Below are positions 11,844-26,359 of a stretch of DNA of 64,000 bases, piece after piece. The notes beneath the pieces are model-generated. The model ran no database searches. It was not told where the DNA came from and worked only from the letters and a program-made list of their open reading frames with translations. The first letter of the stretch is position 1. The number at the start of each line of letters is the position of its first letter. A program made the translations under genes and the position numbers. Origin of the DNA: Serinibacter salmoneus (lineage in GTDB: Bacteria > Actinomycetota > Actinomycetes > Actinomycetales > Beutenbergiaceae); assembly GCF_002563925.1 (NCBI RefSeq), contig NZ_PDJD01000001.1, forward strand, positions 2,424,973-2,488,972. The letters run 5' to 3'.

Positions 11844-12176
11844 CTAGTTCGCGGCCTCGTAGGCCGCGCGAACCTCGGCTGGGATACGGCCGCGCTCGCT
11901 CACCTGGTAACCATGGGCCCCAGCCCACTCGCGGATCAGGGCGGCGTCACCGCGACCCGAACTGCGACCCTTCGACGCCCCCCGTGCGGGAGCCTTGCGG
12001 CCACTCACACGACGGCCGGCGCCGATCCACTGGGCGAGGGAATCGCGCAACTTCTGCGCATTCGCCTCGGAAAGGTCGATCTCGTAGGAGACGCCATCGA
12101 GTCCGAAGGTCACGGTCTCGGCGGCCTCGCCGCCCTCGATGTCGTCCTCGAGGATGACATTCACTCTCTGCACCAT
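11844..12176 (-). CDS. lsr2: Lsr2 nucleoid-associated protein
   Basis: This 110-aa protein is the actinobacterial xenogeneic silencer: it bridges DNA and prefers AT-rich tracts. The N-terminal dimerisation domain reads [24 protein letters not shown] and [15 protein letters not shown] basic Ser/Gly linker follows. The C-terminal DNA-binding domain has [19 protein letters not shown], whose RGR triad inserts into the minor groove. It sits next to lysS as in most actinomycetes. The upstream gap is notably AT-richer than the rest of the window, which would suit autoregulation. Confidence 0.96.
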
Positions 12177-12181
12177 GCGGG

Positions 12182-12243
12182 CATCCTCCTTGGATGAGTA
12201 ATTGTGAGACCGATGGTAATCACACCCGAGGAGCCCATGTCAA
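12182..12243 (-). promoter_or_regulatory. lsr2 promoter and ribosome binding site
   Basis: On the minus strand a consensus TTGACA (12243-12238) is followed after 19 bp by TACCAT (12218-12213). AAGGAGG precedes ATG 12176 by about eight bases. The 12177-12279 gap also carries a weak hairpin with a T-rich loop (12246-12266) that may end the lysS transcript. Confidence 0.5.
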
Positions 12244-12279
12244 TTGGAACCACAAAACAGTGGTCCAGGTTTGAAATGA

Positions 12280-12435
12280 TCAGGAGCGGTCGCGCTTCCA
12301 GGCATCGTCCTCGCGCTTGCGCGCCCGCCGCTCGCGCCTATCCGCCAGAATCATGGCGCGCACCACGACCACAAAGACCGCAAGCACGGCCAAAGACGGG
12401 ATCAGGGCACCGATGTTCGCCCAGAGATCGCTCAT
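12280..12435 (-). CDS. 51-aa single-pass membrane protein coupled to lysS
   Basis: A 51-codon frame starts ATG at 12435, overlapping the lysS stop in an ATGA. The product begins [15 protein letters not shown], has one hydrophobic helix (about residues 11-30, ending [14 protein letters not shown]), then a highly charged cytoplasmic tail ([19 protein letters not shown]). The start/stop overlap, a clean transmembrane helix with a positive-inside tail and ordinary codon use argue that it is a real gene. I do not recognise a named family. A role near the membrane or as a small regulator is possible but unsupported. Confidence 0.65.
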
Positions 12436-14006
12436 CGCCGGCCTAACCCTGGCTTCACGAGAGGGAACAGGATGGTCTCTCGGATACCCCGGCCGGTCAA
12501 CGCCATCAGGAGCCGGTCGATACCCATGCCCATACCGCCCATCGGTGGCAGTCCGTGCTCCACAGCCCGCAGGAAGTCCTCGTCCACGGACATGGCCTCA
12601 GGGTCCCCGGCCGCCGCGAGCAGCGCCTGTGCCTCGAACCGCTCACGCTGCACCACCGGGTCCACGAGCTCCGAGTACGCCGTGGCGAGTTCGAACCCGC
12701 GCACGTACAGGTCCCACTTCTCCACCCGGCCGGGAAGGGACCGGTGCGAGCGCGTCAACGGAGATGTGTCGACCGGGAAGTCCATGACAAATGTCGGCGC
12801 GTGGAGCGAGTCACCCACCAGGTGCTCGAAGAGTTCTTCCAGGATCTTCCCAGCGGGCTGTGGTTGCGCGGACAGCTCCAGGCCAACTCGTTCACAATAC
12901 GTTCGCAAGCGCTCGGCGGTCGTTTCAGGGGTTACTTCTTCGCCGAGGGCCGAACTCACGGCCTCGTAGAGGGAGATTTCCTCCCACTCCCCACCCACCT
13001 CATACGGCGTGCCGTCCGCGAGGATTACCTCCGTCGACCCGAAGACGGACACGGCTGCCTCCTGGACGAGCGCGCGAGTCAGCCGAGCCATTCCCCGGTA
13101 GTCGGTCCACGCCTCGTAGGCCTCCACCGAGGAGAACTCCGGGCTGTGGGAGGAGTCCACACCCTCGTTCCGGAAGATCCGTCCGATCTCGAAGACCCGG
13201 TCCACTCCCCCGACCACGGCCTGCTTCAAGGGCAGTTCGGTGGCGATCCGCAGGTAGAGGTCCACGTCGAACGCGTTCATGTGCGTCACGAAGGGTCGGG
13301 CGGCCGCACCCCCGGCCTGGGTCTGCAGCACCGGTGTCTCGACCTCGAGGTAGTCACGCCGGTAGAAGGACTCCCGCAACGACCGCACCACACCCGCCCG
13401 CACCCGCACCATCTCGCGGGCCTCCGGCCGCGCGATCAGGTCGAGGTATCGGCGCCGGACCCGGGTCTCCTCGCTGGTGTCCTTGTGCATGACCGGGAGC
13501 GGGCGCAGCGCCTTGGAGGCGAGCTGCCAGGAGGTCGCCATCACCGACAACTCCCCTCGCCGGGAACGGATCACCCGTCCCGTGGCCGCCAGGAAGTCAC
13601 CCAGGTCGACATCCGACTTGAAGGCTGCGAGACGGTCCGGGCCGACTTCCGCCAGGGAGAGCATCACCTGCAGGCTGGTGCCCTCGCCGTCCGCGATCGC
13701 CACGAAGCAGAGCTTGCCGGTGTTGCGCAGGTGCATCACGCGCCCCGCGACACTGACCACGTCCTGGGTCTCCTCGCCCGTCTCCAGGCGATCCCACTGT
13801 GCGTGGACCTCGCGGATCGCGTGGGTTCGCGCGACAGCGACGGGGTAGGGGTCGCACCCCTCGGCCAGCAGTCGGGTGCGCTTGTCCTTGCGGACGCGGA
13901 CCTGCTCGGGATCGGACTCCCCGAAGCCATCGAGCAGGGTCGGATCGTGGCTCTCCTGCGGGTCCGGACCCGTGGACGGCGATGGGTCGGCAGTCTGTGA
14001 TGTCAC
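12432..14006 (-). CDS. lysS: Lysyl-tRNA synthetase (class II)
   Basis: This 524-aa class II synthetase has an N-terminal OB-fold anticodon-binding domain ([19 protein letters not shown]) and a catalytic core with motif 1 (FLEVETP-like [12 protein letters not shown] region), motif 2 ([14 protein letters not shown]) and motif 3 ([14 protein letters not shown]). The first 35 residues are a disordered acidic/proline extension. GTG 14006 overlaps the stop of the upstream PanC fusion in a GTGA, implying coupled translation. panD and coaX, which often lie here, are absent. Confidence 0.94.
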
Positions 14007-15868
14007 CCTGGCATGCTACCCAGCGCACGCCCCGGCTCGATCCGCAGCGCACCCGTGTCGAGCAGGCGCACCCCCTCGACCACGGCGGCGACCACGTAGA
14101 CGGCATCCTGGGAGATGCTCTCGGACCCCTGCTGCGCATCATGCGCCTCCGCGGGGGCCGGGATGCGCGCGTCGTGGCCGTCCGGGACGAGCGGGAGGAA
14201 GGTGGTCGGATCCACCAGCAGGGCATAGTCCAGCGTGATGCCCGGCGCGCCTGTGACCTCATCCCGCGCCGCCGCCTGCACCTCAGCGGCGCTCGCACCC
14301 GCACGGGCATAGCGTTGCGCCAACGCGACCGACCGGCTCAGTGCGAGCGCCTGCGCGCGTCCCCGGTCGCTGAGTCGGACGTTGCGGGAGGAGAGGGCGA
14401 GGCCGTCGCGGTCCCGGGCCACCGGCACGGACAGGATCCAGGTCGGCAGGTCGAGGTCAGCGACCAGGCGACGAACCAGGGCGAGTTGCTGCGCGTCCTT
14501 CTCCCCGAACACCGCGACGTCGGGCTGTGTGATGCCGAGGAGTTTGGTCACCACGGTCAGCACACCGTCGAAGTGGCCGGGCCGGGAAGCGCCCTCCAGG
14601 CGCTCCCCCATCTCGCCTGCGCTCACGGTGACCACACCCGGGGTCGGGTACATCTGCTCACCACTGGGTGCGAACACGAGGTCGGGGCTTGCCTCGCCCA
14701 GACTCGCGAGCGCCGCGACGTCCGCCGCAAGGGTGCGGGGGTAGGCAGCGAGATCCGCCTCGCTCCCGAACTGCGTCGGATTCACGAAGATCGTCACGAT
14801 CACGTGGTCCGCCGCCGTCCTGGCAGCGCGAACCAGATCCAGGTGGCCCTCGTGCAACGCGCCCATCGTCATGACGACAGCGACCTCACCGGCCATCGAT
14901 CGGCGACGCCCGCGCACGTCCGCGATCGTGGTCACGACCTCGGGTCCCTCGCCGCCCCCGGGGGTCTCGCCCGCCGCTGCAGCGGGCGCAGCGCGCAGGA
15001 TGCGATGAGCCTGCGCCGCGGTCTGTGCGGAGATCCGGCGCTCCCGTACCGCCAGGTCGGTCGTGGCGTGGGCCAGCGTGCGATAACTTGCCGCGACGCG
15101 CAGGGAGTCCTCGGCGTGTGAGAGCGCGCGCAGGTGCTGCGACACCGTCTCCAGGTCGCCGCGCGAGATCGGCCCCGTCAGCGCGGCGCCCCCCGTGCGC
15201 AGGGCGCCACCCGCCGCGGCGTGGACCAACGGCGTGAGCAGCCGCCCGGCGTCCTCGACGCCGGCCCGTTGCAGCACGTCCTCGGCCTGCACGAGCAGCG
15301 TGACGAGGTGGTTGGAGGCATGGGCCAGAGCCGCGTGGTAGACCGGCCGCACCGAGTCCGGCAGCACGATCGGATCGCCGCCGAGCTCCACGACCAGAGC
15401 CTGCCCGATGGGAAGCACGGGCGCGGCCGCCGTCACCGCGAACGGAGCCTCCACGAGTCGCTGGAGATCGATCGAGGTCCCGGTGAAGGTCATGGCCGGA
15501 TGAATGGCCAGGGTGATCGCCCCGGCTGCCGCCGCCGGCGCGAGGACCTCCAACCCGTGCCGCCCGCTGGTGTGCAGCACGATCGAACCGGGGCGGAATC
15601 CGCCCTGATCAGCGAGCCATCGCACCATCGGGGCGATCGCGTCATCCGGCACACAGACCAGGGTGAGGTCGGCTTCGCGGGCGACCTCGAGCGGGTCCCT
15701 GACCGGGACGCTCGGGAGCAGCGCATCGAGGCGTTCCCGCGTGGCCGGGGAGCCTCCGGAGACCGCGACGACCTCGTGGCCGACGGCGCGCAGAGCACTG
15801 GCGAGCACGGCACCGACGCGGCCGGCTCCGACCACGCCCACGCGGAGCCGGGAGGAGGCTGGGGTCAT
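14003..15868 (-). CDS. panC: DUF2520/Rossmann protein fused to pantoate-beta-alanine ligase (PanC)
   Basis: One 621-aa frame joins two proteins that are usually separate neighbours. Residues 1 to about 290 are a ketopantoate-reductase-like Rossmann domain ([14 protein letters not shown] dinucleotide motif, [16 protein letters not shown]) with the helical DUF2520 domain. After a short Ala/Gly/Glu linker, residues of about 330-621 are PanC, which makes pantothenate from pantoate and beta-alanine with [17 protein letters not shown] (HIGH-like), [28 protein letters not shown] and [11 protein letters not shown] are intact. The PanC half has an insert near its end ([18 protein letters not shown]). 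No stop or frameshift is visible at the junction. ATG 15868 overlaps the upstream gene. Confidence 0.9.
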
Positions 15869-17505
15869 GAGTCCATTGTGCCGCTCGGCCCCGGCACATC
15901 GCGGTCCGGCGCCCGGGGGACGTCGCCATCATGCGGGCCCACCCCACCGTGGTCGCCGAGGCGCTGCTCGGCAGCACTCGGCGCGGTGTCTGCGGCCGGC
16001 TCCGGCTCCTGACGCATCCACAGCTCCGGCCCGTCGGACCGGCGCGCTACCCGCTGCCGCGCCGACTGCTCGGCGAGCAGGTGCGCCGCAACGTCCTGGT
16101 CGAGGTGAGGCAGCGAACTGCTCATCGTGCCCGAGGCGTGCGCGGCGAAGGACACCACGCGCAACCGCCGCTCCCACGGGCCCTGGCCGAGGTGCAGCGC
16201 CTGGCTGCGTTCGTGGAGCACCAGTTCCAGCCGGCGGAACACGCGTCCCGTGCGCAGCGCGAGTGCGGGCGTGGTCACCAGGAACGCGTTGCGGCGCCAT
16301 GCGATCGGGTCCAACCAGCGAGCGCGACGGGGAGAGGCAACCCACCCATGGTGGGAGTCCAGGCCGCGCAGGCCCTCCAGGAGAGCAGGCTCCTCACTCT
16401 CGGGCAGGGACGGGACCACCAACCGCACGAGGTCGAGCACTTCCCGGCGAGTACCCACCGGGAGCACCACATCCGCGCTCTGGCTCCCCTCGCCGTCCGT
16501 GGAGACGTTGGCAATCGTCACGCTGATGCGCCACCAGTCCTGGCGGCGCCACAGCAGCGGTTGGGTGAGCGCGACCGCCTGCACCCTGCCGGGCGGGATG
16601 GTCTTGGCCTTGGTCTCCAGGAGACCCGACCTCACGCGCAGCCCGTCGGGTGAGGTCGCCACCCGGAAGCCGAACTCACCCGAGAACCGCCCCCAGAGGT
16701 AGGCGATGGAACCGAACAGGATCGGGAGCACACCGACGATCACCCACACGCGAGCGAAGAAACCGATGGCGAGCCCCACGAGAACGCCGAGGACGGTGGC
16801 GACGGTCGCGACCGACAACAGCAGGGAGAGGACCAATCGCCCCGGCGCGAGGCTGTACACGGGGTGCTCGGGCGCCTCCGGGGCGACGCCCGCCTCGGGC
16901 ACCACGGGCGGGGACAGCACCGAGGTGGTCCCCTCGGGCGGCCGCTGCCCACCGAGATCACCACGCGCCGCCTGCGCCGGGTCGGGCGGGCTGCCCGGCT
17001 CTCCCTGGGGCACAGCCACGCCGGCCGCCCGCGCGAGGATCTCGTTGCGCAGGGCCTGCGCCTCTGCCTGCGTGAGATAGGCGAGCGTGACGTTCGCGTC
17101 CGCACCGCCCGCGCTCTCCACCCGCACGGCGGAGAAGCCGAAGATGCGCCCCAGGAGCGGTTGAGTGATCTCCACCGACTGGATCCGCGTGAGCCGTGCC
17201 ACCCGCTCGGTGCGGAAGACCACGCCCGAACGCAGGACCACGGAGTCCGGCGTCACCCGGTAGGTCAATCGCCGCCAGGCGAGGTAACTGAACCCGAGCG
17301 AGAACAGCCCGGCGATCACCACCAGCCCGAGCACGATCCCGACCAGTACCAGCACCGCCAGACGCAGGGACAGTAGGTCGTCGAGGCCTTGGATCGCCGC
17401 GACCAGGACGATGCCGAAGGCCACCTTCCACGCATTCAGCAGCGGGGTGACGCGGTGGACGTGCCGCCAGCCCTCCTCGTCACCGGACGGGGGCCGCACG
17501 CTCAC
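15865..17505 (-). CDS. Bacterial PH-domain (bPH_2, YdbT-like) membrane protein
   Basis: This 546-aa membrane protein has two pairs of transmembrane helices, each followed by a bPH_2 domain. The first membrane pair lies near residues 25-70 (IVLVAAIQGL, LVLVGIVLGLVVIAGL) and is followed by RRLTYRVTPDSVVLRSGVV and TRIQSVEITQPLLGRIFGF. The second pair is near 210-265, followed by VRSGLLETKAKTIPPGRVQ. A third PH-like segment (WRRNAFLVTTPALALRTG) ends the ordered part. The C-terminal tail is acidic and disordered. The family function is unknown. GTG 17505 overlaps the stop of the smaller PH gene by 4 bp, the usual actinobacterial pairing. Confidence 0.85.
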   Translation of the reverse strand: MSVRPPSGDEEGWRHVHRVTPLLNAWKVAFGIVLVAAIQGLDDLLSLRLAVLVLVGIVLGLVVIAGLFSLGFSYLAWRRLTYRVTPDSVVLRSGVVFRTERVARLTRIQSVEITQPLLGRIFGFSAVRVESAGGADANVTLAYLTQAEAQALRNEILARAAGVAVPQGEPGSPPDPAQAARGDLGGQRPPEGTTSVLSPPVVPEAGVAPEAPEHPVYSLAPGRLVLSLLLSVATVATVLGVLVGLAIGFFARVWVIVGVLPILFGSIAYLWGRFSGEFGFRVATSPDGLRVRSGLLETKAKTIPPGRVQAVALTQPLLWRRQDWWRISVTIANVSTDGEGSQSADVVLPVGTRREVLDLVRLVVPSLPESEEPALLEGLRGLDSHHGWVASPRRARWLDPIAWRRNAFLVTTPALALRTGRVFRRLELVLHERSQALHLGQGPWERRLRVVSFAAHASGTMSSSLPHLDQDVAAHLLAEQSARQRVARRSDGPELWMRQEPEPAADTAPSAAEQRLGDHGGVGPHDGDVPRAPDRDVPGPSGTMDS

Positions 17506-17993
17506 AGGCCCGCCAGACGGGACTCGCCGAGTTCGGTGAGCCGGTCCTTCAGCCGCGCTGCCTCGGCGGCGGGAAGGCCCGGGATCGTGGCGTCGGTGCT
17601 CGCGGAGGCGGTATGGAGTTTGACTGTTGCGAGCCCCAGCGCGCGTAGCAGCGGCCCCTGGGCCACATCGGTGAACTGCATGCGTCCGTACGGGACAACC
17701 ACGAGCGAGCGGAACAGCACACCGCGCCGCACCAGGAGATCGTCCTCCTCCTCGGCGTAGCCGATCGCGCGCACCTGGCGTGGGATGAGCCACAGCACCC
17801 AGGCGAGCAGAAGGGCGGGCAGGGCGACGAGCGCCCAGATCCAGTCCCCGAGGACAGCGGCGACCACGACCGCTGCGAGCAGGATCGGGAGCAGCACCAG
17901 GCACGTCGCGATGATCCTGGCCCGGATGAACAGGGGCGAGACCCTCGACCAGGTGACCCCGGCGGGCGTGAGCGGATCGGAGTGCTGCGTCAT
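17502..17993 (-). CDS. PH-domain membrane protein (YdbS-like)
   Basis: This 163-aa protein has two adjacent transmembrane helices (about residues 27-70, CLVLLPILLAAVVVAAVLG and ALVALPALLLAWVLWLI) and one bPH_2 domain with EEDDLLVRRGVLFRS, VVPYGRMQFTDVAQGPL and LGLATVKLHTAS. It is the small partner of the larger PH protein that follows it with a 4-bp overlap. ATG 17993 gives the usual N-terminus; an in-frame ATG at 18002 is also possible. Function unknown. Confidence 0.82.
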   Translation of the reverse strand: MTQHSDPLTPAGVTWSRVSPLFIRARIIATCLVLLPILLAAVVVAAVLGDWIWALVALPALLLAWVLWLIPRQVRAIGYAEEEDDLLVRRGVLFRSLVVVPYGRMQFTDVAQGPLLRALGLATVKLHTASASTDATIPGLPAAEAARLKDRLTELGESRLAGL

Positions 17994-18018
17994 GGCACCC
18001 ATCGTGCCAGGCAGTCCC

Positions 18019-18504
18019 TCAGACGTGGCCCTCCGGTCCGTCCGGTCCCCGGCGCTCCTCCTCTCGCGGGGTGCGGCACCAGTGCAGCACGAGCAGGGCG
18101 ACGGCGAACAGGAGAACGGAGACGACCACCATCGCGACGGCGACCCAGGCATCGGCTCGGGCGGCGGGTGCACCGAGACTGCCCATCAGGGAGGCCAGCC
18201 ACGCGGCACCGTGCCCGATGAACACAGCCGAGACGTAGTAGGCGGTGACGGCCAGCGCCGCGACCCGGGCGGCGGCGATCGGCTCCATGGATCGACGCCC
18301 CCGGACGAAGCCGCGTACCCGGTTACCCAGCCACAGGAGTACGAGCGCGAACCCCAGCAGGAGCACGATGAGGATCCGCGGAGCCGGGATCGTGACGCCG
18401 CGTGTGTCCAGGAGCATCAGGACGAGCAGGGAGAGGGCGAAGGAACCGGAGCCGAGAGCGAGCGCAGGCAGCGCACGAGCCGGGGACTGCGGGCGGTCGG
18501 CCAT
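18019..18504 (-). CDS. DUF3180 membrane protein
   Basis: This 161-aa protein has four predicted membrane helices (about residues 15-35, 42-60, 78-98 and 118-143) and a hydrophilic, acidic C-terminus. It matches DUF3180 in length, topology and position: this family lies directly after folK in many actinobacterial folate operons. The function is unknown. That it persists here next to a degenerate FolB/FolK remnant suggests its job is not tied to folate synthesis. Confidence 0.85.
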   Translation of the reverse strand: MADRPQSPARALPALALGSGSFALSLLVLMLLDTRGVTIPAPRILIVLLLGFALVLLWLGNRVRGFVRGRRSMEPIAAARVAALAVTAYYVSAVFIGHGAAWLASLMGSLGAPAARADAWVAVAMVVVSVLLFAVALLVLHWCRTPREEERRGPDGPEGHV

Positions 18505-18510
18505 GCGGGA

Positions 18511-19965
18511 TCAGTCGTCGGGAGCCGATTCGGACGGCTCCGGGTCAGCGGGACGGGCCCAGTCGAGGGCGAGCCACTTCACCGCACCGCGGTCCGAAGC
18601 GACCTCCGCCAGGTCCACGACCAGCCCGCCCTCGGGCCCCGGCACCGTAGCGCCCGGGTCGAGTTGCGACCAGGGGACAAGGACAGCCGCACTCCTCACG
18701 GCATCAGGATGGGGCAGCGCGATCCCGTCGACCTCGTCGGCCGCGCCCTCCAGACTCAGGACCTCCACCCGGACACCGGCACGGTGCCCGGAGGCGACGA
18801 GGTCGGCGAGCGCGGCTCGGGTACCGAGGTACTCCACTCCGACCACCGCGGTGCGGCGCTCCTGCCCGTCCGGCACGGTACGGGCCAGCGGGGAGACCCC
18901 GGTGATCTCGAGACCGTCCCGCTCGCGCAACGACCTCAGTGCTGCGGCGAGGTCGCCCGCTCCGGCGGGGGCGTGCGCGTACATGGCGATCACACCGCGC
19001 AGTGTCTGCGGTTCGGGGATCGGTGGAACCGCCGGGACCGGCTCGGCATCGGCCGGCTCGGCATCGGCCGGCTCCTCATGACCCGGCTCAGCACCGGCCG
19101 GCTCCTCTTGACCCGACCCGTCGACAGTCGACTGGGCCGATTCGCTCAGGACGTCACCCGACGCGAGCGTGGCCGCAGGTGCGGGTGGTTCCTCGGCGCC
19201 ATCCGCCTCGACGTCCTCGCTCGGCGATTCGCCGAGCACCACCGGCGCGTCCTCGGACGGCGCGGGATCGACCGGCGCGTCCTCGGACGCCGCGGGATCG
19301 ACCGGCGGTGTGGGTTCGACCGGCGGGGGTGCCACCGGGGACCAGCTCGGGGTGGGGACTGCCGGCTCCGCAGCCGTGGCGGCGGCGATCCAGGGCACAG
19401 CGCTCGCAGCCACGTCCTCGGGGGCGGAGTCCCCCTCGTGGGCACCCAGGGAGGCGCCTGCCGGCTCGCCGTCAACCGGCGCCGGCGCCTCATCCACCTC
19501 CACGTCCACGTCCACGGGATCAGGATCCGAATCCGCTTCCGCGGGCGCCGGCTCAGGTGCGGGCGCCGGCACGGGCGCCGGCGCGGGGGCCGGGACCTGA
19601 CCGGCCGTCGCCGCGTCGGCAGCGGGTCCGGCCGCCACGCGGCTGCGCTCGATCACGCACTCGACGTCCTGCACGAAGACGCCCAACGGCATCTCGGGTC
19701 GGTGCAGCCGCACCTCCACACGCTCGACCCCGTCGTGCTCCAGCGTCACGCGCGCCACGGACTCAGCGCGCTCGCGCAGCCCCGGGCTGCTTGCCCGGAG
19801 TTGCTCGGCCGCCGCCTGGGCGAGCACGGGCAGGTCGAGATCCGCCCCGGTCGTCCACACGTTCAGGTCGGCGAGGAAGGGCTCGAACTCCGGTTCACCG
19901 GCGCCGTCGGCTGCGGGCACCGCTCCCCGGCCGGCCAGGCCCACGATGCGGTAGTGGTCGCTCAC
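18511..19965 (-). CDS. Degenerate FolB-FolK fusion (probable non-catalytic remnant)
   Basis: This 484-aa protein has three parts. Residues 1-110 align with dihydroneopterin aldolase: ERVEVRLHRPEMPL corresponds to the canonical VEVxVHKPxAPI, but the catalytic Lys is Arg89, the HGVxxxE segment is replaced by GAVPAADGAGEPEF, and the Tyr-containing segment is missing. Residues of about 111-320 are an Ala/Pro/Glu/Asp linker with short internal repeats (EPADAEPADAEP). Residues of about 321-484 align with HPPK/FolK: ALPHPDA and AVLVPWSQLDPGA are kept, but the GSNxGDR loop reads MYAHAPAGAGD and the RWGPRxLDxDL catalytic block is gone. folE and folP, normally between ftsH and folB, are absent. A scaffold or regulatory role is possible; catalysis looks unlikely. 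Confidence 0.8.
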   Translation of the reverse strand: MSDHYRIVGLAGRGAVPAADGAGEPEFEPFLADLNVWTTGADLDLPVLAQAAAEQLRASSPGLRERAESVARVTLEHDGVERVEVRLHRPEMPLGVFVQDVECVIERSRVAAGPAADAATAGQVPAPAPAPVPAPAPEPAPAEADSDPDPVDVDVEVDEAPAPVDGEPAGASLGAHEGDSAPEDVAASAVPWIAAATAAEPAVPTPSWSPVAPPPVEPTPPVDPAASEDAPVDPAPSEDAPVVLGESPSEDVEADGAEEPPAPAATLASGDVLSESAQSTVDGSGQEEPAGAEPGHEEPADAEPADAEPVPAVPPIPEPQTLRGVIAMYAHAPAGAGDLAAALRSLRERDGLEITGVSPLARTVPDGQERRTAVVGVEYLGTRAALADLVASGHRAGVRVEVLSLEGAADEVDGIALPHPDAVRSAAVLVPWSQLDPGATVPGPEGGLVVDLAEVASDRGAVKWLALDWARPADPEPSESAPDD

Positions 19966-20023
19966 GCCTGACACCCTAGCCAGCGCCGGGGTCGCCGCGA
20001 GCGAGGACGCACGGAGCGTCGCA

Positions 20024-22051
20024 CTAGTTCTCGCCCGGGCCCTCCCCCAGCACATCGCGCTGGTCCACGGGGTGTTCCTCGTTGGCGGCGGCGGCCTGGT
20101 CCTGCGGTAGCTGCGGGACATGGTTGGCGGCGACCTCCGCCGGTGTGCGCACCGGGGGCTTCGTGCTCACGGGACGCGACGGCGAGGAGTGCCACACCGG
20201 CCGTGGATCGCGCTTCGCGACCGGGGCGAAGATCTCGGCGAGGGCCGCCTCGTTCAGGGTGTCCTCCTCCAGCAGTCGCAGCGCGAGGGTGTCCAGCACA
20301 TCGCGGTAGGTGGTGAGGATCTCCCACGCCTCGTCGTGCGCGTTCTCGATGAGGCGGCGCACCTCCTCGTCCACGATGCCCGCGATCTCCTCGGAGTAGT
20401 CACGTTGGTGCCCGTAGTCCCGGCCGAGGAAGACCTCGGAGTCCGCCTGTCCCAGGCGCTGCGCGCCGACGCGTTCGCTCATGCCGTACTGGGTGATCAT
20501 CTTGCGGGCCGTGTCCGTGGCCTTCTCGATGTCGTTGGACGCCCCGGTGGTGGGGTCGTGGAAGACGATCTCCTCGGCCACGCGGCCACCCATCGCGTAG
20601 GCGAGCTGGTCCAACAGCTCGTTGCGGGTGGTGGAGTACTTGTCCTCGGCCGGCATCACCATCGTGTACCCGAGCGCGCGACCACGAGGAAGGATGGTCA
20701 CCTTCGTCACCGGGTCCGTGTAGCGCAGCGCGGCGGCCGCCAACGCGTGCCCGCCCTCGTGGTAGGCGGTGAGTTTGCGCTCGGCCTCGTTCATCACCCG
20801 CGTGCGCTTCTGCGGACCGGCGATGACGCGATCGATCGCCTCGTCGAGCGCGCGGTTGTCGATGAGCTGTGCGTGCGAGCGCGCGGTCAGCAGCGCCGCC
20901 TCGTTGAGCACGTTGGACAGATCGGCGCCGGAGAATCCCGGGGTCCGCTTGGCCACGGTCGCGAGGTCGACATCGGGGGTCATCGGCTTGCCCGCCGCGT
21001 GCACCTGCAGGATGGCGAGGCGGCCCTTGAGGTCCGGAGACTCCACCGTGATCTGGCGGTCGAACCGGCCGGGGCGCAGCAGCGCCGGATCGAGGATGTC
21101 GGGCCGGTTCGTGGCGGCGATGAGGATCACGCTGGCGTTTTTCTCGAACCCGTCCATCTCCACCAGGAGCTGGTTCAGGGTCTGCTCGCGCTCGTCGTGC
21201 CCACCGCCGAGCCCGGCGCCGCGCTGACGCCCGACCGCATCGATCTCGTCGATGAAGATGATCGCCGGGGCGTTCGTCTTCGCCTGCTCGAACAGGTCAC
21301 GCACACGAGAGGCACCCACGCCGACGAACATCTCCACGAAGTCCGACCCGGAGATGGAGTAGAACGGCACGCCCGCCTCGCCGGCGACCGCCTTCGCGAG
21401 GAGCGTCTTCCCGGTTCCAGGGGCCCCGTAGAGCAACACACCCTTCGGGATACGCGCACCCACCGCCTGGTAGCGGGAGGGGTCGGCGAGGAAGTCCTTG
21501 ATCTCCTGCATCTCCTCGACGGCCTCGTCGGCGCCGGCGACGTCCACGAAGGTGACGTCCGGGTGCTCCTTGTTGACCTGGCGCGCCTTCGACTTGCCGA
21601 AGTTCATCATCCGCGAGTTCCCACCCTGCATGCGGGACATCACGAACCAGAACACCCCGATCACCAGGGCGAGGAAGAGGAAACTCGTCAGCAGCGACGT
21701 CCACCACGGGGTCTGCGGCACCACCGAGTTGTAGCCCTCGGCCGGATCGGACTCCTCCACGAGGTTCGCGATCTGCTGGGCCTGCGCCTCGACGTAGTAG
21801 AACTCCACGAGTTCACCGCGGTCGTTCTCCTCGGCGTCCACATAGGGCTCGCTGAGGGTGAGCTGGACCCGCTGGTAGCCCTCGGTGATCTCCGCCTGCT
21901 CCACGGTCTCCCCGCGCAGGAGCGCCACGCCCTCGGAGGTGTCGATCGTGCTGACCCCGCCGCCGCGCAGCAGGCTGAAGCCGATCATGAGGACCAGGAT
22001 GGGGAGCAGGATCCACAGCAGGGGTCCACGCACAAACTTCTTGGCGTTCAT
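20024..22051 (-). CDS. ftsH: ATP-dependent zinc metalloprotease FtsH
   Basis: This 675-aa membrane-anchored AAA+ protease degrades damaged membrane proteins and short-lived regulators. Two transmembrane helices (about residues 11-27 and 117-138) flank an extracytoplasmic domain. The AAA core has Walker [14 protein letters not shown], Walker [12 protein letters not shown] and the second-region-of-homology [19 protein letters not shown]. The protease site is [12 protein letters not shown] (HExxH), and a distal acidic zinc ligand is expected in [24 protein letters not shown] is normal in actinobacteria. The C-terminus is long and disordered. Confidence 0.96.
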
Positions 22052-22293
22052 TGACTCAAGGCCGCGTGGGCCGTCCTTCCGACTCGGAGACTCCCGGTGA
22101 CTCTATGCGAGAGCGCAGGCGTCCACCTGACGTGTTCGCTGATCGCGTCACCCTTCGGTCAACGCCACCCGGCGCCGAGTGGTTCCCGGGACCGCCCCCT
22201 GCGGCTCACCTGACATCGTTCCCCCCGTGCCGACCTGACGGCTGAGTCCGCGACACCCCTCGCGTCGCGTCCTGGTCGGCAGAGCTGCCGCCG

Positions 22294-22875
22294 TCAGCCC
22301 CCGTACACGTGCGGTGCGAGCACCGCGACGAACGGGAGTTGCCGGTAACGCTCGGCGTAGTCCAGCCCGTAGCCCACCACGAACTCGTTCGGGATGTCGA
22401 ACCCGAGGTAGCGCACGTCGATGTCGACCTTCACAGCATCGGGCTTGCGCAGCAGCGTGGCGATCTCGAGCGAGGCGGGCTGACGGCGCTCCAGGGTCTC
22501 CATGAGCCAGGACAGGGTGAGGCCGGAGTCGATGATGTCCTCGACCACGAGCACGTGGCGCCCGGAGATGTCGGCGTCGAGGTCCTTCAGGATCCGCACC
22601 ACACCGCTGGACTGCGTGCCCGCGCCGTAGGAGGAGACCGCCATCCAGTCCATGGAGACGTCCGAGCGCAGGTGGCGCATGAGGTCGCTCATCACCATCG
22701 CGGCGCCCTTGAGAACCCCGACGAGCAGGATCTCCTTGCCGGCGTAGTCCCGGTCGATCTGCGCGGCGAGGTCGGCGAGTTTGTCCCGGATCTCCTGCTC
22801 GCTCACCACCACCCGGACCAGATCGCCCCCGACCTCGGGGTAGTGCCACGTCGTCTGGTTCTCCTGGTCGCTCAC
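22294..22875 (-). CDS. hpt: Hypoxanthine phosphoribosyltransferase
   Basis: This 193-aa purine-salvage enzyme converts hypoxanthine or guanine plus PRPP to IMP or GMP. LVGVLKGAAMVMSDLMRHL and MDWMAVSSYGAGTQSSG are the family's first loop and flexible catalytic loop. VLVVEDIIDSGLTLSW is the PRPP-binding signature with paired acidic residues, and EFVVGYGLDYAERYRQLPF is the C-terminal base-binding block. GTG 22875 follows tilS by 3 bp. The tilS-hpt-ftsH order is standard in Gram-positives. Confidence 0.95.
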   Translation of the reverse strand: MSDQENQTTWHYPEVGGDLVRVVVSEQEIRDKLADLAAQIDRDYAGKEILLVGVLKGAAMVMSDLMRHLRSDVSMDWMAVSSYGAGTQSSGVVRILKDLDADISGRHVLVVEDIIDSGLTLSWLMETLERRQPASLEIATLLRKPDAVKVDIDVRYLGFDIPNEFVVGYGLDYAERYRQLPFVAVLAPHVYGG

Positions 22876-22878
22876 GGC

Positions 22879-23886
22879 TCAAGCCTGGCACACCGGGGGC
22901 AGGACGGCGAGGCTGGGTCCGTGCCGCCCCACCCGTAGACCGCCCGGCACGCTGATCGGCCCCTGACCGTGCCACGCAAACACCAGGGCCTCCACCGCCA
23001 GGACGTGGCTACGCGCGAGCGCACGGGGAGGGCTCCCCCGCTCCACCAGCCACTGGTGGAGCGCACGGGTGCGTAGGGGGCGGGCGGCCTCGGCGAGCAC
23101 CGCGACCTGGAGGCCCTCACCCTCGCGCGCGCTCTCGAGGGTTGCTCCGGCGAGCAGCTCCAGCAGGTCGTTGTCCTCCCGCAGCGCATCGGCGGTGCGC
23201 GCGAGCGACGGCGTGGGGTCGGCCCCGAGCGCACGGCGCAGCGCGGGCATCACCTCCTCGCGGATGGCCGCGCGGGGAAGTGCCTCGCCGTCGGCCCGGC
23301 GCAGGGGCCCATCGGTCGCATTGCCAGGATCGTCCCACCAGGTCAGCCCGAGCGCGCGGCAGGCGTCCCGCAACTGTGCCCGCCGCAGTCCCAGCAGGGG
23401 TCGGCGGTAGTGGCCCCGCACCGATGGGATCGCGGCGAGCGAACGGGCCCCGCTGCCGCGCGCGAGCCGCATCAGCACGGTCTCGGCCTGGTCGTCCATG
23501 GTGTGACCGAGCAGCACGACGGCGGCTCCCACCTCCTCGGCCACGGCATCCAGCGCCCGGTACCTGGCCTCGCGCGCCCCGGACTCCACCCCACCGGTGG
23601 CGTTCGGGCTGACCCGACGAACCAGTGGGCTCACGCCGATGGCGGCGGACAGGGCCGCCGCCCGCTCGGCGATCTGCGCGGAGTCGGGGAGGAGTCCATG
23701 GTCGATCGTTGCGCTGCGGACCGTCAGGCCGAGTCGGGGTGCCTCGTGCGCGGCGGCGGCAAGGAGCCCGAGGGAGTCCGCTCCGCCCGAGAAGCCCACG
23801 ATCACCACCGCGTCCGGCGCCAGGTCACCGAGCGTCCGGCGCACCGCGAGCCGGGTGCGCGCGACCGCTGGGTGGGGAGCGTTCAT
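22879..23886 (-). CDS. tilS: tRNA(Ile)-lysidine synthase
   Basis: This 335-aa N-type PP-loop ATPase would attach lysine to C34 of tRNA-Ile(CAU), switching codon recognition from AUG to AUA. The P-loop is VGFSGGADSLGLLAAA. TIDHGLLPDS, GGVESGAREARYRALD, LGHTMDDQAETVLMRLARGSG and IRPLLGLRR-like YRRPLLGLRRAQLR follow. The C-terminal tRNA-binding region is short, as is usual for actinobacterial TilS. ATG 23886 overlaps the upstream stop in an ATGA. Confidence 0.92.
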   Translation of the reverse strand: MNAPHPAVARTRLAVRRTLGDLAPDAVVIVGFSGGADSLGLLAAAAHEAPRLGLTVRSATIDHGLLPDSAQIAERAAALSAAIGVSPLVRRVSPNATGGVESGAREARYRALDAVAEEVGAAVVLLGHTMDDQAETVLMRLARGSGARSLAAIPSVRGHYRRPLLGLRRAQLRDACRALGLTWWDDPGNATDGPLRRADGEALPRAAIREEVMPALRRALGADPTPSLARTADALREDNDLLELLAGATLESAREGEGLQVAVLAEAARPLRTRALHQWLVERGSPPRALARSHVLAVEALVFAWHGQGPISVPGGLRVGRHGPSLAVLPPVCQA

Positions 23887-24965
23887 CCGTGGACCCGCTC
23901 CACCCACCGATCGGGTGCGAGGATCTCCGCCGGCGACGGGAGCTGCTCGGGGGCCTCCCACACGGCGTTCAGCCCCTCGTGACCGACCCGTTCGACCACG
24001 GCTCGGGTGAAGGCGGCACCGTCGCGGTACTGCCGCACCTTCTCCTCCACCCCGAGCAGGCGACCGATCAGGGCGCTCAACCCGCGCTGTCGGCCCCGTC
24101 GCTTCTCGAAGGCGCGGCGGATCACCCGCACGCTCGGCACGGCCCCGGTGCCGACCTCGTCCATCACCACGTCCGCGTGGCCCTCCAGGAGCGACATCAC
24201 GGCGATCGCGCGGTCCACGTCCTCCTGCTGCGCATCGTCGAGCATCGAGGCCAGGAGTCGGGGGGTTGCGCCCGTCGCCGCTCGTGGCGACGGCACCGGG
24301 CGGCCGGGGCGGCCCGGGCGACGCGACGTCGGCACCGCACCACCCTGTTCGTCCGAGCCGGCCACGGCTGCGGCGATCAGCGAGCGGAGGTGGTCGGCCA
24401 GCCAGGGCGCCGCGGCGAACTGCACGGCGTGCGTCTGCTCGTGCAGGCAGACCCACAGCGCGAACTCATGCGGGTCGACATCCAGGCGGCGGTGCATCGC
24501 CAGGATGGTGGGGGCCACCAGGAGGAGGCGCCCCGAGGCGGCTCCCGCGGGCCCGGGGGTATAGGGGTCGAACTGCCCGAGCACCCGGGGTCCGAGCAGC
24601 GCCAGGGCACCACCGAGTTGGTCCCCCGCCACGGCAGCAGACAGCCGCCCCCGCAGGCCCGGACCCCCGGTCAGGTGATCCCCGAGCAAGGCGGCGAAGG
24701 ACTGGGTCGCAGCACGCGCCCAGCCCGCGCGGTCCACGATCCGCACCGGCAGGGCGCCGGCTCGCTCCCCGGCATCCTGCAGTCCGGTGACGCACGCGAC
24801 GTGACCCGGGGCCTGCCGGGAACCCTCCCGCAGCGACTCCACCACGGTGGCGGCCCCGACCAGGTCGGTCGGGGGCCCCGCCGGCAGGAGCACTGCCGCG
24901 CGCCGAGCAGCACGATCCCAGTCGATGGCGGAGCCCCGCATGTCGCCGTGATCCACGCCGCTCAC
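23883..24965 (-). CDS. DUF2342 zinc-dependent metalloprotease-like protein
   Basis: This 360-aa protein belongs to the actinobacterial family often labelled DUF2342 or 'coenzyme F420 biosynthesis associated'. Residues near 180 carry the zincin motif LHEQTHAVQF (HExxH), and MSLLEGHADVVMDEV provides a downstream Glu/His/Asp cluster that can complete the metal site. IDWDRAARRAA starts the domain. It sits between dacB and tilS, its usual place. No F420 genes are nearby and the name should not be read as function. GTG 24965 overlaps the dacB stop in a GTGA; ATG 24941 is an alternative. Confidence 0.85.
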   Translation of the reverse strand: MSGVDHGDMRGSAIDWDRAARRAAVLLPAGPPTDLVGAATVVESLREGSRQAPGHVACVTGLQDAGERAGALPVRIVDRAGWARAATQSFAALLGDHLTGGPGLRGRLSAAVAGDQLGGALALLGPRVLGQFDPYTPGPAGAASGRLLLVAPTILAMHRRLDVDPHEFALWVCLHEQTHAVQFAAAPWLADHLRSLIAAAVAGSDEQGGAVPTSRRPGRPGRPVPSPRAATGATPRLLASMLDDAQQEDVDRAIAVMSLLEGHADVVMDEVGTGAVPSVRVIRRAFEKRRGRQRGLSALIGRLLGVEEKVRQYRDGAAFTRAVVERVGHEGLNAVWEAPEQLPSPAEILAPDRWVERVHG

Positions 24966-26359
24966 ACGTCCGATTCCGGTTGGCAGCCACACGCGGAGAG
25001 TTGCGTGAGGTAGGCGTCGATCCGCTCCCGCGCCGCCCAGATGCCGCCGTACTCCACGTCGTCGGCCATCACGGCGAATGCGAGCGGGCGCCCGTCCGCC
25101 GTGGTCACGTACCCCGCGAGGCTCACCACGTCCTCGAGAGTGCCGGTCTTCCCCCGCACGGCGCCCGGTGGGATGTCGCGCTCGGCGAGGGTACCGACGA
25201 GTCCGGACACCGGGAGCACCCGCGCGAGCTCGGTGAGCGCGGGGTCCTCGTTCGCCGCAACCAGCACGTCGATGAGCAGTTCGGGCGCGATCGCATTCGC
25301 GCTGTTGAGTCCCGAGGTGTCGGAGAGCACGGTGCCCGAGACGTCCACTCCCGCCGCGGCCGTCCCGGCCAGGACGGCCGTGGTGGCACCCTCGAAGTCG
25401 GCCGCCTCACCCCGCGCGATCGCGACCAGCCGGCCGAACACCTCCGCCAGGGTGTTGTCCGACTGCGTCATCATCACGGCGAGGAGTTCCCTCAACGTCG
25501 CCGAGGAGACCTGCGCGATCGTGGTGGCGTCCTGCGGCGCCTCGTCGCGCTCGAGTCCGTCCTCGACCGTGACGCCTGCCTCACGCAGGGCGTCGCGGAA
25601 GATCACCGCGGCGTCGACGGCGGGCCGCAGGGAGGTCGCGACCTGGCCCTCGACCTCTCCGAGGTCGACGGCGACCGCCTCGATCGGCGCGACGAAACCG
25701 TCACCGACCCCCCAGTACCCCCACCCCGGTGACTCGCTCGCACCGGTGAACAGGGAGTCGTCCAGGCGCAGGGTCACCGAGTCGACCCCGCGCTGCTGGA
25801 GTTCCGCGGCCGTCTCCCGCGCCAGATCGGCCAGCCCCGCCCGACCGAGCACCGCCGTCGGGTCGCCCTCATCGGCCGCGAGGGTCATATCGCCACCACC
25901 CACGAGGTAGAGGTCATCACCCGACAGGAGCGCGGAGGTGGTGAGTCGGTCATCGAGATCGAGGCTGGTGACGGCGGCGAGCCCGGTCAGGATCTTGGTC
26001 GCCGAGGCAGGAGTGCGGCGCTGCGTGGCGTCGATCGCGACCAGTTCCTCCCCGGTGGCGAGGTCGACCACGACGACGCCCACACCCGCGCCCGTGGCCT
26101 CGTCCTGCACCATCTCCCGCGCGGCGGCAGCGATGATCTCGGCGTCAGGCACGGGAGCGGATGCCGACAGCGGCGGGAGCACCTCGGGCACCGGTCCGCG
26201 TCCAGGCACGATCGGGGTGGGGAAGGGCTCCGCCTCGGGCCAGGGTTCGGCGGTCGTGAGCGGGCCGGGAACGAGGTCGGCGGCGTCCGCGGCCCCGTAT
26301 CCGACCCCGAGCACGACGACGGCGCCCACCGCCAGCAGCACGCCGGTTCGCCGTTTCAT
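24962..26359 (-). CDS. dacB: D-alanyl-D-alanine carboxypeptidase/endopeptidase (PBP4, DacB type)
   Basis: This 465-aa exported penicillin-binding protein trims peptidoglycan stem peptides. An N-terminal hydrophobic segment (residues 6-27, GVLLAVGAVVVLGVGYG) is a signal/anchor. The class C active-site triad is complete: PASATKILTGL (SxxK, nucleophile serine), QSDNTLAEV (SxN) and RGKTGTLEDV (KTG). Length and motif spacing fit peptidase family S13. ATG 26359 starts at the charged MKRR that opens the signal. Confidence 0.93.
   Translation of the reverse strand: MKRRTGVLLAVGAVVVLGVGYGAADAADLVPGPLTTAEPWPEAEPFPTPIVPGRGPVPEVLPPLSASAPVPDAEIIAAAAREMVQDEATGAGVGVVVVDLATGEELVAIDATQRRTPASATKILTGLAAVTSLDLDDRLTTSALLSGDDLYLVGGGDMTLAADEGDPTAVLGRAGLADLARETAAELQQRGVDSVTLRLDDSLFTGASESPGWGYWGVGDGFVAPIEAVAVDLGEVEGQVATSLRPAVDAAVIFRDALREAGVTVEDGLERDEAPQDATTIAQVSSATLRELLAVMMTQSDNTLAEVFGRLVAIARGEAADFEGATTAVLAGTAAAGVDVSGTVLSDTSGLNSANAIAPELLIDVLVAANEDPALTELARVLPVSGLVGTLAERDIPPGAVRGKTGTLEDVVSLAGYVTTADGRPLAFAVMADDVEYGGIWAARERIDAYLTQLSACGCQPESDV

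Follow-up and report, generated by a model that had tools for sequence, protein, structure and literature searches.

On the minus strand of the window (the whole 64,000-nucleotide stretch of DNA that was analysed), ftsH is followed by a gap of 58 bp, an open reading frame encoding 484 aa, a gap of 6 nt and a gene for a DUF3180 membrane protein. The 484-aa frame, which runs from a GTG at 19965 to a stop ending at 18511, encodes a FolB-like and a FolK-like domain joined by a linker and is referred to here as pseudo-FolBK. The features of the locus are as follows.

20024..22051, minus strand: ftsH, the upstream neighbour (Pfam); relatives have folE and folP between ftsH and folBK.
19973..19978, minus strand: TAGGGT, putative -10 box with its first T 13 nt before the GTG (alignment of six carriers).
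18511..19965, minus strand: pseudo-FolBK, 484 aa, GTG start; intact frame; five further family genomes have a homologue adjoining DUF3180.
19636..19965, minus strand: FolB-like domain with a tunnelling fold (residues 1-110), lacking Tyr53 and Lys98 (alignment, profile, AlphaFold2 model, Foldseek).
19003..19641, minus strand: acidic linker of 213 aa (residues 109-321), low in complexity and rich in Ala/Pro (alignment, composition).
18514..19002, minus strand: FolK-like domain (residues 322-484) that has lost catalytic residues and retains WLALDW at its C-terminal end (alignment, profile, weak model).
18019..18504, minus strand: DUF3180 membrane protein (PF11377, 69.4 bits).

An earlier note, made from the letters of this DNA, had described a 58-bp gap in place of folE and folP and a frame intact over 484 aa that keeps both domain skeletons; the gap follows from the end of ftsH at 20024 and the start of the fusion at 19965, and the frame and skeletons were recovered by the open reading frame, the profiles and the predicted folds. 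A second fusion was seen elsewhere in the window, where a single frame at 14003-15868 joins a Rossmann-like/DUF2520 protein to pantoate-beta-alanine ligase.

The Pfam FolB model scored 20 bits over residues 48-106 of the window protein, short of its gathering cut-off of 31.8, and such sub-threshold FolB remnants were found in four of the six genomes that carry the fusion. A profile of the FolB-like domain built from five rows matched Mycobacterium tuberculosis FolB at an E-value of 8.5e-6, and an AlphaFold2 model of the domain (pLDDT 74.8, pTM 0.70) has the order strand-strand-helix-helix-strand-strand; of its ten best Foldseek matches (TM 0.71-0.79), nine were dihydroneopterin aldolases and one was a related epimerase. 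We compared the five intact pseudo-proteins, column by column, with 13 of the 17 active relatives in the family and with E. coli FolB, taking the positions Tyr53 and Lys98 from mutants that PDB titles name. Both residues are invariant in all 13 active relatives, whereas in the pseudo-proteins the Tyr53 column is Leu in all five and the Lys98 column reads R, R, R, Q and R (Arg89 in the window protein). The HGVxxEER loop is absent and the 11 alignment columns preceding the Tyr are deleted. At Glu21 and Glu73, catalytic residues as well, the columns read A, Q, D, gap, E and E, P, A, A, E, respectively, in an uncertain part of the alignment, and are invariant in the active relatives. The first 110 residues of the five pseudo-proteins nonetheless contain 39 invariant columns. 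The domain thus has the tunnelling fold and a homologous sequence but lacks Tyr53 and Lys98, and was not filed as an aldolase. The replacement of the VHKP lysine by Arg89 and the disappearance of the HGVxxxE and Tyr segments, both reported in the earlier note, agree with these columns.

For the FolK-like half, the Pfam HPPK model gave no match on the window protein, although a three-row profile of this end placed HPPK structures first (four matches, E 0.0014-0.021). Its predicted structure is weak (pLDDT 56.6, pTM 0.51, with residues 85-163 below 50), and the top 49 Foldseek matches of this weak model were all HPPK or HPPK fusions (TM 0.44-0.50), so that an HPPK fold and a homologous sequence were recovered with the reserve that the model imposes. 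The column check compared the five intact pseudo-proteins with E. coli FolK and the same 13 active relatives (E. coli numbering, Met1 left out); N10, N55, R82, R92, D95, D97 and H115 are mutated residues named in PDB titles, and R84 and R121 are further active-site residues of HPPK. N10, Q50, Y53, N55, E77, R84, W89, R92, R121 and F123 are lost in all five pseudo-proteins, R82 in four (it is kept in G023) and H115 in four (the exception being the window protein), and the loop from R82 to R92 is largely deleted. The 13 active relatives show no variation in any checked column apart from Y53, where four have Phe. Among N10, N55, R82, R92, D95, D97, H115 and R121, H115 is the single residue left in the window protein, which therefore lacks an HPPK active site. 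D97 is Glu in all five pseudo-proteins and D95 reads R, E, E, T and E; given Glu at D97 in five of five and at D95 in three of five, some metal binding by this half is conceivable. LPHP and the C-terminal WLALDW are kept. The loss of the FolK catalytic blocks with retention of LPHP and the final strand had been read correctly from the single sequence, and alignment with the active relatives and the E. coli protein restored no catalytic residue. Both folds came back from structure prediction, the FolK-like one from its weak model.

Between the two domains, the linker of the window protein contains 21% D+E and about no K or R. Linkers are 213-348 aa long in the five intact pseudo-proteins versus 38-84 aa in the 13 active relatives. 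In the closest pair of carriers, G004/G006, dN/dS was 0.30 for the FolB-like domain, 0.24 for the FolK-like domain and 0.26 for the two together (95% interval 0.18-0.37, codon bootstraps), compared with 0.70 (0.51-0.95) for the linker, showing that both domains are under purifying selection in this pair and that the linker is freer. In three pairs of active fusions the domains had ratios of 0.13, 0.17 and 0.27 and the linkers 0.47-0.60; at 0.27, the domains of the active pair G012/G013 are as loose as those of the closest pseudo pair. Three farther pseudo pairs gave 0.49 vs 0.69, 0.63 vs 0.61 and 0.52 vs 0.49 for domains and linker, with overlapping intervals. In this GC-rich set the synonymous differences reach a plateau, pS being 0.37-0.56 for the domains whether a pair is near or far, and dS is probably underestimated; the claim of selection was drawn from G004/G006, and the plateaued farther pairs, which say little, were left unused. 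The alignment and dN/dS analysis proposed in the earlier note therefore points to a gene kept by selection as a protein, the ratio being informative in the closest pair only.

The genome (G000) is a single contig of 3.27 Mb, rated 100% complete, and was placed in a family sample of 24 genomes. Profile searches of the complete genome found no match to FolE, DHPS (FolP) or HPPK (FolK); the same searches detected FolE in 11/14, DHPS in 13/14 and HPPK in 11/14 control genomes. The sole FolB match in the complete genome was the remnant in pseudo-FolBK, and no intact folB was found. FolC and DHFR are present in 24/24 family genomes, and thyA adjoins DHFR in the window genome. Since folE, folP, folK and an intact folB are absent and folC, DHFR and thyA are present, the organism uses folate but apparently does not make it. 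A missing DHPS should block the folate route. The earlier note had postulated loss of de novo synthesis at this locus; at the level of genes the loss is shown for the whole genome, no intact folE, folP, folB or folK being encoded elsewhere in it and folC being present, and folate auxotrophy is predicted to follow from this gene content.

The same absence recurs in the family. HPPK was found in 17 of the 24 genomes, FolE in 18, DHPS in 18 and FolB over the cut-off in 17, and six genomes from four genus groups have neither FolE, DHPS nor HPPK (G000, G004, G005, G006, G007 and G023, which include Serinibacter arcticus K3-2, G004, and Miniimonas arenae KCTC 19750, G007). The other 18 all have folE and folP, and 17 of them also folB and folK; the remaining one, G003, is a draft of 580 contigs in which folE and folP but no folB or folK were found, with folE and DUF3180 on two short contigs. 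In 17/17 folK genomes, folE, folP, folB, folK and DUF3180 lie in that order on the same strand, as judged from their coordinates, and DUF3180 is present in 24/24 genomes.

Searches for a route of folate uptake were less informative. FolT (TIGR04518) had no match over the cut-off in the 24 genomes, a weak test in that 0/14 controls passed it either; below the cut-off there was one match among the 24 (G009), none in the window genome, and matches in 4/14 controls. The ECF substrate-component family PF12822 had no match in the window genome, G007 or G023 and fell below the cut-off in the three g5 carriers. Six frames near DHFR (four from the window genome, two from G004) were compared with Pfam and included no recognised folate transporter: they comprise an amino-acid permease, an AI-2E family transporter, two membrane-like proteins without a family, thyA and DHFR. 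A 237-aa frame with about six membrane spans and no Pfam family lies near DHFR/thyA of the window genome (L151:3317-4030), and in its folC region three head-to-tail, near-alike frames of 175-176 aa lie upstream of a 1124-aa frame (L152:1306-2916). No Rfam family reached its gathering score in window positions 12000-26000, and this region therefore has no known folate riboswitch.

The PabB model TIGR00553 gave nothing over its cut-off in any of the 24 genomes. A tier of matches at 192-233 bits in 15 genomes (G008-G022), with a weaker extra match of 123 bits in G002, was tentatively taken as PabB; the tier is absent from the six carriers and also from G001 and the draft G003, a pattern that fits the loss of the pathway and does not decide it. 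G001, which stands next to the carrier clade, has folE, folP and folBK and no match in the tier taken as PabB, so that the loss of pABA synthesis may have come first, ahead of the other steps. DHFR scored 87-131 bits in the six carriers vs 139-167 bits in the other 18 genomes; DHFR is thus diverged in this clade, which seems to salvage folate.

Pseudo-FolBK adjoins DUF3180 in all six genomes that lack FolE, DHPS and HPPK, as an intact frame in five and a frameshifted one in G005. The G005 gene has frameshifts in both domains, and because folC of this genome is split too, sequence errors in the assembly are likely, though not proven; a broken gene, if real, would count against strict retention. 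When the FolB-like profile was run against 396 genomes of the order, the six carriers came out on top (151-181 bits, with G005 in two pieces of 77 and 63), scores that are partly given by construction, since the profile was built from five of them and only G005 was found independently. The next best score among the matches listed was 54.4 bits and 63 genomes had no match, so that outside the six carriers no genome of the order came near their scores. Outside the order, a scan with short peptide patterns confirmed two loci, those of S. arcticus and M. arenae, and missed any other carriers among the contigs scanned, and it says little on wider spread. In an FtsH tree of 19 genomes (omitting G005, which is cut by the end of its locus, and G010, G011, G018 and G020), a branch with 100/99 support separates the five intact carriers from the rest, and G001, with an active folBK, is placed next to them, which is compatible with a single loss after which the fusion was kept as the four genus groups diverged. 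The titles and abstract starts of open-access literature on folate auxotrophy, FolB/FolK pseudoenzymes, Serinibacter, Miniimonas and Beutenbergia contained nothing on such a protein.

Comparison of the upstream regions revealed a signal for expression of the fusion. A TANNNT hexamer starts at -12 or -13 before the GTG in 6/6 carriers, and in 5/6 it is the sole TANNNT within 200 nt upstream. Signals around 12 bp before the start are described as marking leaderless genes, which are frequent in Actinobacteria (PMC3160421). Because the -10 box is conserved at 12-13 nt, pseudo-FolBK probably has its own leaderless promoter; a scan of 17900-20200 for consensus sigma-70 promoters and terminators returned nothing, the box having come from the comparison. 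In G005 an opposite-strand frame (L069:3677-6811), family 20 hexosaminidase-like by eye, lies between ftsH and the fusion, an arrangement that also fits a promoter belonging to the fusion. In G023 (L072) there is a perfect inverted repeat just upstream of the -10 box, which may terminate the ftsH transcript.

We consider it fairly probable (about 0.7) that pseudo-FolBK is a double pseudoenzyme that has been conserved to act as a scaffold or to bind a partner. Its homology to enzymes and the loss of their catalytic residues are shown by the alignments, and the repurposed pseudoenzyme suggested in the earlier note is well supported by its occurrence in six genomes and four genus groups, the five intact frames, selection in the closest pair and the conserved box. 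In the ancestor of one clade, folE and folP would have been removed from the row ftsH-folE-folP-folBK-DUF3180, after which the remaining FolB-FolK fusion would have lost nearly all catalytic and ligand-contacting residues, partly through short in-frame deletions; the residue losses are shown by comparison with the 13 active relatives, and the order of events is our reconstruction. Cells with no recognised folate route would most likely import folate and could process it with folylpolyglutamate synthase, DHFR and thymidylate synthase, the genes for which are present. The fused protein was retained, under a putative promoter formed by the conserved -10 box at leaderless distance, with a FolB-like end that may keep its fold and perhaps the ability to form rings and a FolK-like end that may keep a ferredoxin-like surface. 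A disordered linker of 213-348 residues would tether both ends and make the protein a scaffold or partner-binding hub and not an enzyme. The DUF3180 membrane protein is a plausible partner on the basis of gene order, as it is the constant neighbour of the fusion (24/24 genomes have it, and in the five intact carriers its likely start comes no more than 28 nt after the stop). The earlier note had offered a scaffold or a sensor; a sensor of pterins would be less likely because the pterin-contacting residues are among those lost.

The main rival is a slowly decaying relic: with the folate genes lost, the fusion would persist only because DUF3180 and the downstream membrane-protein genes need its frame for their translation or transcription. 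The likely start of DUF3180 lies 6 nt after the stop of the fusion here and 1-28 nt after it in the other four intact carriers, the gene is frameshifted in G005, and outside the pair G004/G006 each domain has a dN/dS of 0.42-0.73, as such a relic might. However, the frame is unbroken, at 484-604 codons, in five genomes from four genus groups, conservation extends to both ends and is not confined to the 3′ end (39 columns are invariant among the first 110 residues), and the domains of the closest pair evolve at 0.26 vs 0.70 for the linker; these three observations weaken this explanation, and we regard it as unlikely. Somewhat less likely again is a ligand-binding sensor or an enzyme of a new reaction, with both pockets rebuilt for another small molecule: residues invariant and specific to the pseudo-proteins (LAGRG, EPFL, AAAExL) and the partial replacement of HPPK D95 and D97 by Glu would suit it, but residues that contact pterin and ATP in the enzymes are deleted or replaced, the R82-R92 loop being largely gone.

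That pseudo-FolBK is a working folate enzyme of unusual form, with unrecognised enzymes carrying out the other steps, is very improbable, even though both folds are kept and H115 is present in the window protein, as FolB Tyr53 and Lys98 and HPPK N10, N55, R92 and R121 are gone in 5/5 pseudo-proteins and the genome has no DHPS match, leaving the product of such an enzyme with no known use. A broader and more tentative proposal, to which we give less than even credence, is that the FolB-FolK fusions of the family have a second, non-catalytic role, for example in holding a membrane complex together with DUF3180, which outlived folate synthesis and is the sole role left in this clade. When a vitamin pathway is lost its enzymes are expected to vanish or rot, and here a protein has outlasted its catalytic parts, so that its retention through the split of four genus groups separates enzyme chemistry from any other job that the protein may do. 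Should the active FolB-FolK fusions share the retained job, it would be a function so far unseen for domains that, according to PDB titles, are studied as inhibitor targets. S. arcticus K3-2 and M. arenae KCTC 19750 should likewise depend on imported folate, by a transporter that was not recognised.

Among proteins of known structure, the bifunctional FolB-FolK of Streptococcus pneumoniae (2cg8) has FolB and then FolK in one chain and is matched by sequence and fold; it differs in having been solved as an enzyme and in having practically no linker, the matches meeting at residues 122/123. M. tuberculosis FolB (1nbu, 1z9w) is the best sequence match of the N-terminal domain, and 1nbu also its best fold match, but it is a single-domain enzyme of 119-133 aa, and the Lys of its HKP segment is Arg in the window protein. 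The HPPK enzymes of S. aureus and E. coli (3qbc, 1hka) match the FolK-like domain in sequence and fold, and the E. coli enzyme keeps the active-site Asn, Arg, Asp and His residues that are lost in pseudo-FolBK, apart from H115 in the window protein. The active FolB-FolK fusions of the family itself (13 of 17 examined, e.g. L073 and L080) share with pseudo-FolBK the order of the domains, the place before DUF3180 and the segments VSPLA[RK]T, LPxP, VLVPW and WLALDW. Unlike pseudo-FolBK, they keep the checked catalytic residues (Y53 of HPPK being Tyr or Phe), are preceded by folE and folP, have a shorter linker (38-84 aa) and, in 12/13, carry long C-terminal tails that the pseudo-proteins lack. 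These tails (L074, L078-L087), of low complexity and 85-415 aa long in the 12, lie outside both enzyme domains, and 11 of the 13 fusions terminate in a conserved motif, P[KR]W; the tail of G008 (L077) may have been read out of frame. The motif hints at a binding role, and a disordered tail ending in it would be another trace of a hidden second role in the active fusions, though one that the pseudo-proteins do without.
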